Shown: in pieces, positions 61,829-64,000 of the stretch
How positions within the stretch are numbered: the first letter of the stretch is position 1
How the letters are laid out: each line of letters begins with the position of its first letter
Assembly: GCF_001683335.1 (NCBI RefSeq)
Contig: NZ_CP016201.1
Span: forward strand, 2,493,972-2,557,971
Direction of reading: 5' to 3'
Length of the DNA stretch: 64,000 bases
DNA from: Selenomonas sp. oral taxon 126
GTDB lineage: Bacteria; Bacillota; Negativicutes; Selenomonadales; Selenomonadaceae
The notes under the pieces: model-generated
Told to the model about the DNA's origin: nothing
The model's input: only the letters and a program-made list of their open reading frames with translations
Databases searched by the model: none
Program-made: the position numbers and the translations under genes

Positions 61829-62424
61829 AAGGAATCTCCTCTGCGGCAGGTTCGGACGAATGTCCCCAGCGTCAGCTCCATCCCCGCATTCTGCAGGACG
61901 TAGAGCGATGTCACGAGGATGAACGCGGCACAGCCGTTCATATTGATTGTCGTGCAGATGGGCAGGACGAAGCGTGCAACGGACGGATGTGCGCCAAGCC
62001 GCTGCTCCGCCGAGGCGAGCGGCACGAGCAGCGCCCCCGCAGAGCTCTTCGTAAAGAGTGCGACGGCGACGACGGGTGCCATCTGACGGAAGACGCGCAC
62101 GGGATTCAGCCCGCGCACGGCGAGGAAGAACGGAATGACGACAAAGAACTGAATCAGGTTCCCGCCGATGACGACGGCGGTATAGACACCGAGCGAGCCG
62201 ATGATGAGCCCCGCCTCAATCTGCGCCGCAAGCTGCGCGGCAAAGGCGAGAATGCCGATGGGAAGAACGACGATCAGTCTGCGGATGAGCGTGAAGAGGA
62301 GTTCCTGCAAGCCGTGGATGCCCTTCAGCACCATCTCACGATTCTCCGTCTTCGGCGCAAAGGCAAGCCCAAGTCCCGCAACCGCTGCAACAAGCATGAC
62401 GGAGAGCACATTGCCCGATGTAGT
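61825..62424 (-). pseudogene. Cation:dicarboxylate symporter family, fragment
   Basis: About 194 residues of the SDF (DAACS) fold: SGNVLSVMLVAAVAGLGLAF, IVVLPIGILAFAAQLAAQ, FTKSSAGALLVPLAS and the substrate loop LPICTTINMNGCAAF. The first 150-200 residues are absent, replaced upstream by IS3-like ends at 62424. At the other side the protein stops after GTFVRT, about 100 residues early, where the ribosome site of the NYN gene begins. Both ends are missing, so it is a decayed fragment. Confidence 0.8.
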
Positions 62425-62467
62425 GACCCCAAAAGTTAGATCCTATAAGCCTAACTTTTAGGGGTCA
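62424..62467. repeat. IS3-like inverted ends, 44-bp relic
   Basis: Inverted repeat TGACCCCAAAAGTTAG / CTAACTTTTAGGGGTCA with 11 bases between the arms. TG...CA ends followed by AAAAGTTAG resemble IS3/IS150-group termini. No transposase remains and no target duplication is obvious; it may be an internally deleted insertion sequence, or alternatively a hairpin that acts as a terminator. Confidence 0.5.
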
Positions 62468-62516: not shown

Positions 62517-62834
62517 CTAGTGCTTGCCCGATCCATGCCCGCCATGCGTGCTATGTGCGCCATGGGCATGCCCGACACTGGCGGCGGCATGACCGACGGC
62601 ATGACCGACCCCGGATACGACGTGTCCGACATGGGACGCGCCTGAGGCGGCATGACCGATAATGTCGGTGCCCGTATGCACCAGTCCGTGCCCTGCATGG
62701 CTCAGATGTCCGGCATAGGACGCATCGGCGTGTCCGATTGCCGATGCACCGAAGCCGTGGTTCGACATCCCCGGCAGATAAGCGTTGCCGCCTGTGTGCG
62801 ACCCGCTCCCATGATCCTCTGCTCCTGTAAACAT
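62517..62834 (-). CDS. His/Gly-rich small protein
   Basis: 105 residues, very biased: about 19 His and many Gly, Ala and Ser, in GH-rich runs such as IGHAASGASHVGHVVSG and SVGHAHGAHSTHGGHGSGKH. A ribosome site GGAGG precedes the ATG by 8 bases, which supports a real gene. There is no signal peptide. The composition suggests metal (nickel, zinc, copper) binding or storage. It lies 72 bases after the dynamin-like gene. Confidence 0.65.
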   Translation of the reverse strand: MFTGAEDHGSGSHTGGNAYLPGMSNHGFGASAIGHADASYAGHLSHAGHGLVHTGTDIIGHAASGASHVGHVVSGVGHAVGHAAASVGHAHGAHSTHGGHGSGKH

Positions 62835-62906
62835 GGTATCAACCTCCTTGCATATACATCAACGATTCCTTGAAAGCAACGGGGCGGGCAGGACATCCAT
62901 CCCGCG

Positions 62907-63998
62907 CTACCGCGCAGGATAGATCCTCAGCAGATGATGCAGGGCATCTGCCAGAGCAGCGGTATAGTGGAGGAAGAACATACCTTGCTGGTACGCACTG
63001 TTCTTCTCCTGATACACCTTCTGCAAGGCTGCCCGCTCCACCTGCAACTCCTGCGCCCTTCTCTCCTGACGCGCGAGCTGACTGCTCACAGACGTGCGGA
63101 CGAACTGTTGGCAGGCTGCATGAAATGTCTCTTTCTCACGTCGGAGGAGACGGCTGAGATCTCCGTATTCCCTGTTCGCCTTCTCCCACGATCTCTCGGC
63201 GCTTTCCATCTCCCGCTGCGCACGATCCAGATTGTCCTTCGCCTCGGTGAAGTTCTTGTTCGCTACGGCGTTCCAGAACCGATCGGCGATATTGCTGATC
63301 GGGCTGTCGTCATACGCCCTTCGGAGCGGCTCATAGGCTGCTACACTTTCCTCATACACCGTATGCAAAGCTCTTTCTTCCTCTGCCATGCGCGTACATT
63401 CCCCGCGCATCTGAGCGATACGGCAGGACTCCGCCCCCAGCTTCTCTGCCGTCGCCCTGACTCCATGCGGGCAGAAGGCAGGCAGCAGGTAGGACTGCAC
63501 GTTCAGAGCCGCCCGCACTGCATCCTGCCTGTACTCCCCGAACGCCTCCACTGCCTGAACAAGTGCCACACGGTGTCTCTCGGCGTCGTTGATCTGCTGC
63601 AGGAGCGTCTGCATCTCTGCATCCAGTCCCTGATGCCCCGCGAGAAGCCGTTCCCTCGCCCTGTCTGCGGCAGTCAGAAGCTCTCGGAAGAATCCGCCCT
63701 TGCGGTCGGCGATGTACCGCTCCTTCTGCGCGGCAAGGTCTGTCATAAGGTATCGTCGGATCTCGGCAATCCTCCGATACTCCTCCGAGGGCGCTGCGTC
63801 CTTCGGCTTTTTCGAGGAGACGAAGAAGATCTGATCGAACAGTTCTGTCGGTATCTCATCGCGGATATGTGCATAGGCATCTGCACGCTCCTTTGCAGGG
63901 ATGCGGTCGACCTGGTTGACGATGGCAATCTTGTGCCGGGTTCCAGTTTCCTGCAGCAGCTCGTACTCCGTACGCGTCCCCGCCTTTGCGGCGTGGAA
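62907..63998 (-). CDS. Dynamin-type GTPase, C-terminal part
   Basis: 363 residues are visible and the frame runs off the right edge, so the P-loop is outside. The G4 motif is KIAIVNQVDRI (NQVD), followed by IFFVSSKKPKD, the G5 area. From about 130 residues before the C-terminus the sequence is charged and helical (NLDRAQREMESAERSWEK, RQERRAQELQVERAAL), a long coiled coil like a dynamin stalk. An internal ATG at 63746 is not the true start. Bacterial dynamins remodel membranes; role here unknown. Confidence 0.75.
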   Translation of the reverse strand, partial: FHAAKAGTRTEYELLQETGTRHKIAIVNQVDRIPAKERADAYAHIRDEIPTELFDQIFFVSSKKPKDAAPSEEYRRIAEIRRYLMTDLAAQKERYIADRKGGFFRELLTAADRARERLLAGHQGLDAEMQTLLQQINDAERHRVALVQAVEAFGEYRQDAVRAALNVQSYLLPAFCPHGVRATAEKLGAESCRIAQMRGECTRMAEEERALHTVYEESVAAYEPLRRAYDDSPISNIADRFWNAVANKNFTEAKDNLDRAQREMESAERSWEKANREYGDLSRLLRREKETFHAACQQFVRTSVSSQLARQERRAQELQVERAALQKVYQEKNSAYQQGMFFLHYTAALADALHHLLRIYPAR

Positions 63999-64000
63999 CA

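Follow-up and report, generated by a model that had tools for sequence, protein, structure and literature searches.

A small histidine-rich protein is probably encoded by the fourth gene of an acquired island with three membrane-bending GTPases in Selenomonas sp. oral taxon 126

Introduction

What is a small protein rich in histidine and glycine doing directly behind a dynamin-like GTPase? The question is raised by the right end of a 64,000-nucleotide stretch of DNA, called the window here (G000:C1:2493972-2557971), from Selenomonas sp. oral taxon 126, whose genome is a single contig of 2,886,041 bases. To our knowledge, bacterial dynamins have been described singly or as pairs, and what makes them specific in defense is a question for the field. 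The small protein of this locus is probably encoded by the fourth gene of an acquired island whose other genes include three membrane-bending GTPases.

Results

Three overlapping dynamin-like genes

A preliminary description of the window had reported a 105-residue protein with about 19 histidines, 72 bases downstream of a dynamin-like gene. Both statements are accurate: the frame begins with ATG and encodes 105 residues, including 19 His and 25 Gly by count, and it follows the end of the dynamin frame at 62907, in the same direction, after a gap of 72 nt. The same description had suspected a multi-gene set around the dynamin, reaching beyond the right edge, and extending the contig revealed exactly this, namely three dynamin-like genes, A, B, and C, with overlaps at A/B and B/C, C being the third of the run (Table 1). 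The gene order of this run is well supported. All three proteins have P-loop and DxPG motifs and match Pfam Dynamin_N (A, 2.3e-25; B, 2.4e-28; C, 5.3e-25). By hydropathy, A and B possess a hydrophobic membrane paddle; C has an N-terminal anchor, of a kind that also occurs in the third type of dynamin encoded by G028 and G023, and its C-terminal part is free of a paddle.

Table 1. Features of the island and of related clusters (positions without a prefix are those of the window; the others carry the name of their own stretch)
Feature	Position	Strand	Length	Remarks
Transporter gene, 3' remnant	61862..62418	-		intact 440-444 aa in five congeners
Palindrome near island left edge	62424..62467	.		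hairpin -23.8 kcal/mol, z -4.4
Small His/Gly-rich gene	62517..62834	-	105 aa	fourth and last gene of dynamin run
Predicted long amphipathic helix	62553..62753	-	codons 28-94	single-sequence AlphaFold2 and hydrophobic moment
Shine-Dalgarno AAGGAGG	62843..62849	-		8 nt before ATG of small gene
Dynamin C, 3' part in window	62907..64000	-	363 aa	whole gene L004:8879-10654, 591 aa
Dynamin B	L004:10621-12444		607 aa	upstream of C, outside window
Dynamin A	L004:12422-14257		611 aa	upstream of B, outside window
Glycine-zipper/PLD-like gene	L004:14394-15809		471 aa	divergent from A; Pfam, PADLOC
Second dynamin cluster, window's genome	L031:8083-17063 = C1:1936082-1945062			canonical, with GG/DPL protein
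HNH-ending small genes after dynamin B	L039:11379-12065 and L040:1566-2285			Pfam HNH 26.4 and 24.9 bits, cut-off 21.4

PADLOC matches B to LeoBC (5.4e-26) over residues 21-596, A to LeoA (8.5e-19), and C to LeoA (1.2e-9) through the GTPase domain alone, its output giving no cut-offs for LeoA or LeoBC. These matches, together with the island described below, make the proposed defense or membrane-remodeling setting plausible. At E <= 0.001, C finds a match in only three of 14 genomes of the genus, its own included; those in G005 and G006 are centered on the GTPase domain, one of them reaching residue 375. The sole match to C in genome_contigs, in L030, covers 30 residues at 57% within a membrane segment of an apparent sensor kinase and was taken as chance. 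The part of C inside the window was modeled with a mean pLDDT of 57.7, and comparison of this model with the PDB gave no match at E <= 0.001, so the model was set aside. A tree was built from the 40 rows that passed a P-loop filter, which itself removed several C-type genes; A and B of the island are unplaced long branches in it, and C, also on a long branch, groups with three C-type rows (100/98). A -10/-35 pair before A matches at 11 of 12 positions and is no evidence by itself, because the scan found three sites where 2.9 were expected.

The island and its insertion site

Five congeners carry an intact transporter gene of 440-444 aa, which we take to be of DAACS type, directly adjoining a gene of 1175 aa, presumably encoding pyruvate:ferredoxin oxidoreductase. 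Homology with the transporter ends at L004:8390 (window position 62418) in all five comparisons, which places the left edge of the island there, and it resumes at L004:16280-16299. Since these edges agree in five congeners, about 7.9 kb came in and the 5' part of the transporter gene was lost. The earlier description of the region as full of remnants holds in part, the gene examined next on the left being the transporter cut at its 5' end. The composition gives the island no foreign mark because its G+C (0.590) is close to that of the flanks (0.573 and 0.577). Allowing at most one mismatch, the genome has three copies of the palindrome near the left edge, which is possibly a terminator or a pair of insertion-sequence (IS) ends, which we presume it to resemble. 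At the right end of the island is a repeat of about 170 bases (L004:16022-16197), also present elsewhere in the stretches of four of the five congeners. Phage or prophage origin was considered and rejected: one record of the phages collection matches B, and in viral_contigs neither A nor B nor the GG family described below has a match, in a search by peptide patterns that, for single proteins, reaches only close relatives.

The 471-aa gene divergent from A encodes a protein whose hydrophobic middle is rich in glycine (PADLOC PDC-M09A, about 1e-14) and whose end is weakly PLD-like (Pfam PLDc_2, 1.8e-5, 25 bits, under the cut-off of 27). At E <= 1e-15 it has matches in 28 of 380 genomes of the class, mostly over the middle, and the match in G008 is limited to the PLD-like end, so the protein looks modular. 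The plasmids collection contains none. A glycine-zipper module is common to proteins near dynamin or GG-protein genes and their ends differ, being PLD-like in the island and, by eye, DUF4145/HEPN-like in L034:9438-11207. Also near dynamin or GG-protein genes, L062:9434-11305 encodes a PLD-like protein with a match to MkoB (2e-21).

A small-gene slot in other dynamin clusters

In many dynamin sets a comparable slot holds a small gene whose product is rich in Gly and poor in Lys/Arg, bears GG-repeats, a DPL motif, or both, and sometimes includes an HNH nuclease domain; several clusters of the family have a small gene straight after dynamin B. Four of the first six slot proteins to be aligned share repeats of the type HTxPNxxGGxDIY. 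The other two have a DPLAHAxE motif in common with the GG-repeat proteins and end in an HNH domain, which reads as an effector-like swap. Elsewhere the slot proteins measure 93-239 aa with 0-5.4% Lys+Arg and are Gly-rich in the GG members; the DPL motif varies to NPL in L037 and DHL in L058 and is absent from the GG proteins of L108 and L130.

A profile of the six proteins finds this GG/DPL family in 13 of the 380 class genomes. Dynamin B is likewise present in 13 (E <= 1e-40), 11 of which also carry the family, a co-occurrence with a hypergeometric probability of 1e-17 that ignores relatedness and is thus overstated. The matched gene directly follows B in ten of its 13 genomes, with gaps of -4 to +77 nt. 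Of the rest, G224 has it one gene further away, with another small gene that carries DPL in between, G034 has it at the edge of a contig, and in G164 nothing more than a dynamin remnant accompanies it. The two genomes with B and no GG/DPL match (G026 and G023) have contigs ending at or inside B.

A second cluster in the genome of the window is canonical. Its first dynamin (1114 aa) bears Sel1 repeats and is separated by an unrelated-looking 396-aa gene from the second (639 aa); the third (603 aa) is followed by a GG-repeat/DPL protein of 157 aa. Three further dynamins of about 780-820 aa follow a 204-aa gene in an arrangement common to this genome and G005 (L032:2901-10646 and L042:5654-13320), and no slot-type small gene was seen beside the dynamins of these two clusters.

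Across a phylum sample of 398 genomes, 31 match dynamin B at 1e-30, including the window's genome and G139. The loci of 25 of the other 29 have one dynamin gene, in places split, and two (G432 and G480) have two dynamins each, in masked or cut sequence. In the remaining two, G712 and G604, a small GG-repeat gene lies 18 nt behind the second of three dynamins and ahead of the third; the slot protein of G604 has 16 His in 138 aa. The second dynamins of these two genomes pair together outside the B group in the tree, so they are called B from order and size only.

Plasmids also carry such genes, 36 records matching dynamin B, of which four were examined. In Lysinibacillus pFN9B a dynamin trio is joined, with a gap of 0 nt, by the gene of a 93-aa protein with DPLGQAERY, which by eye resembles a small gene of G224 over its second half. 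The small genes that accompany the trio of Paenibacillus pART37 are charged and coiled-coil-like and show neither GG-repeat nor DPL, Treponema pTS2 has two dynamins, and pFN9A (L173) has three larger dynamins with other genes, similar in size to those of L032 and L042. No GG protein was found in the plasmids collection. The slot is therefore common but not universal, being present in many clusters and its marks absent from pART37 and others. As a separate observation, two small proteins linked to dynamins, L063:2211-2612 of a class relative and L170:8666-8947 of a Bacilli plasmid, have, by eye, DPLxxA and a C-terminal VDGYxRSDGTYVxxHxR in common.

Is the window protein a member of the slot family?

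The window protein agrees with the slot proteins in its late position in the run, small size, and Gly-rich, Lys/Arg-poor make-up. It occupies the last place of the same gene run, but after C, whereas the slot proteins of the class follow B. It contains no GGx(D/N/E) unit and no DPL or DHL; against the slot-family profile, 53 of the 1991 shuffles that were scored do as well, and pairwise comparison with 11 members gives z values of -0.4 to 1.0. A repeat-unit profile scores no better (923 of 1903 shuffles reach it; best stretch, 293 of 1903). An N-terminal likeness to the family, MFT...Y..P.G, was discarded as worse than the shuffle mean, with 897 of 1000 shuffles reaching it. With both marks missing, shuffled sequences scoring as well, and no detectable homology beyond composition, the window protein does not belong to the GG/DPL family by sequence; it is either a replacement of the slot protein or a passenger.

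The small gene and its product

The synonymous codons of the small gene fit the preference of the neighborhood above a composition null (z 2.48; seven of 1000 nulls as good), and the score of 0.088 is weaker than the 0.18-0.28 of five neighboring genes, four of which were in the reference table. Its protein has no family match in four libraries (Pfam, NCBIfam, PADLOC, PHROGs), no relative in the plasmids collection, and none in 189 genomes of the family beyond the window's own; a match in G116 (34 residues, E 4e-4) lies inside a 645-codon frame and was taken as chance. Absence of the gene next to the dynamin gene in relatives, which the preliminary description had named as refuting its reading, is what was observed for the exact gene; a different small gene is found at a comparable place in many dynamin sets. 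Such isolation, the position at the island edge, and the weaker codon preference are what would be expected of a young orphan or passenger frame, perhaps translated, that has no role in the dynamin system and was left behind at the edge. We consider this unlikely in view of the strong ribosome-binding site, the helical periodicity of the hydrophobic residues and histidines described next, and the recurrence of a small-gene slot elsewhere.

Single-sequence AlphaFold2 draws residues 28-94 as one helix, with blocks up to pLDDT 95 (mean 69.9), in the best of five unequal models made from one sequence without an alignment, the remaining four having means of 64.6, 49.7, 45.9, and 37.6. Ala/Gly-rich sequences are readily drawn as helices by structure prediction. 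For residues 28-94 the hydrophobic moment reaches its highest value at exactly 100 degrees, with p 0.0006 for that angle and 0.045 when the largest value anywhere between 60 and 180 is taken, and with no segment chosen the whole protein peaks at 101 degrees (p 0.004 at 100; 0.047 overall). Within the segment the large hydrophobics VILFYM (14 of 67 residues; p 0.0002) and His (13 residues; p 0.005, at 99 degrees) are both periodic, with phases 145 degrees apart, on opposite faces of the predicted helix; Ser/Thr give p 0.04, and Gly (p 0.18) and Ala (p 0.62) are not periodic. There is moderate evidence that this segment is an amphipathic helix with a histidine face, a prediction that better describes the protein than the term aggregation-prone applied to it earlier.

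The histidine content (18%) also invites the view that the protein binds metal, as a Zn, Ni, or Cu store or chaperone that supplies or senses the ion, its adjacency to a dynamin being secondary. A helix could bring together histidines at spacings of 3, 4, and 7 (positions 43, 46, 49, and 53; 61, 68, 71, 78, 82, and 89), and the tail is His-rich as well; the 99-degree period of His and the absence of Cys and Arg are further points for this view. Metal storage would leave the hydrophobic face superfluous, however, the island's five genes include no metal-transport or metalloenzyme gene, and the lack of any match in the four libraries is a further point against it, so we regard a metal-binding role as distinctly unlikely. 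Quite improbable is a killing function, in which a His-faced amphipathic helix resembling the designed LAH4 peptides would permeabilize the cell's own membrane once the dynamins or a change of pH or charge release the protein: the opposed His and hydrophobic faces would suit this role, and the two HNH-bearing slot proteins elsewhere would suit an effector slot, but the protein has few large hydrophobics, one Lys (Lys+Arg, 1%), and no Arg, unlike LAH4. According to PMC8160934, designed peptides rich in His adopt a helix in membranes, and their His residues set the hydrophilic angle.

Discussion

The known systems closest to the island are Eleos and LeoABC. Eleos by definition comprises two genes, LeoA and LeoBC, and the A and B pair resembles it because B matches LeoBC over almost its whole length and A is matched by LeoA, in adjacent genes; in the sister cluster A and B do not correspond one-to-one to LeoA or LeoBC. 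The island differs in having three dynamins, the anchored C being of a separate third type, and a small gene in which PADLOC finds nothing. One partner with a predicted membrane anchor is a further likeness, LeoC in PMC4159319 and C here. The same paper describes LeoABC in vesicle release, so defense is not the only possible role of the island. A survey of Bacillus cereus genomes (PMC11811056) groups Eleos with "Dynamins" as one type because the two often occurred in couples.

Other bacterial dynamins are less similar. The bacterial dynamin BDLP1 (2j68) and the GTP-binding proteins of 5owv, the latter presumably the Campylobacter DLP pair, resemble B and C of the island in the GTPase domain, with matches confined to that domain and just past it, and C has no paddle. 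We know of no small partner gene for DynA of Bacillus subtilis. DynA is a bacterial dynamin tied to phage resistance (PMC8844932), and it differs in that two dynamins are fused in one protein (PMC4159319). No operon combining three dynamins and a small partner was described in the titles and opening lines of abstracts examined in a mostly non-subscription literature. Compared with the GG-repeat/DPL small genes of other three-dynamin clusters, the window gene stands apart by its high His content and predicted helix.

Our best reading, held tentatively and at somewhat less than an even chance, is that the small gene is real and the last of the run A-B-C-small on the island, and that its product associates with the membrane through its helix as a partner in a dynamin operon of Leo/Eleos-like type, probably anti-phage. 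Of this picture, the island, the order of its genes, the reading frame, and the helical period were observed; co-transcription, binding to the membrane, partnership with the dynamins, and defense are inferred. The four genes would be co-transcribed. The protein would lie on the membrane surface along its long amphipathic helix, hydrophobic face inward and neutral Gly/Ser/His face outward, and would mark or shape the membrane patch where the dynamins assemble; alternatively, it may be a membrane-active end that the dynamins release. The purpose would probably be defense against phages, with the divergent glycine-zipper/PLD-like gene supplying a second membrane-linked effector.

A broader and more doubtful proposal is that three-dynamin operons of the phylum have an exchangeable cargo slot, in which a small protein, often by way of its DPL motif, would be recognized by the dynamin machine and brought to the membrane site of phage entry. 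The cargo could then be an HNH nuclease in some species, a GG-repeat scaffold in others or, in this island, a His-faced amphipathic helix that replaced them. A small partner that varies between species while the dynamins stay would offer a direct handle on these systems, since it could be their cargo, sensor, or effector, and thanks to the recurrent DPL motif and the HNH versions this can be tested with short constructs.
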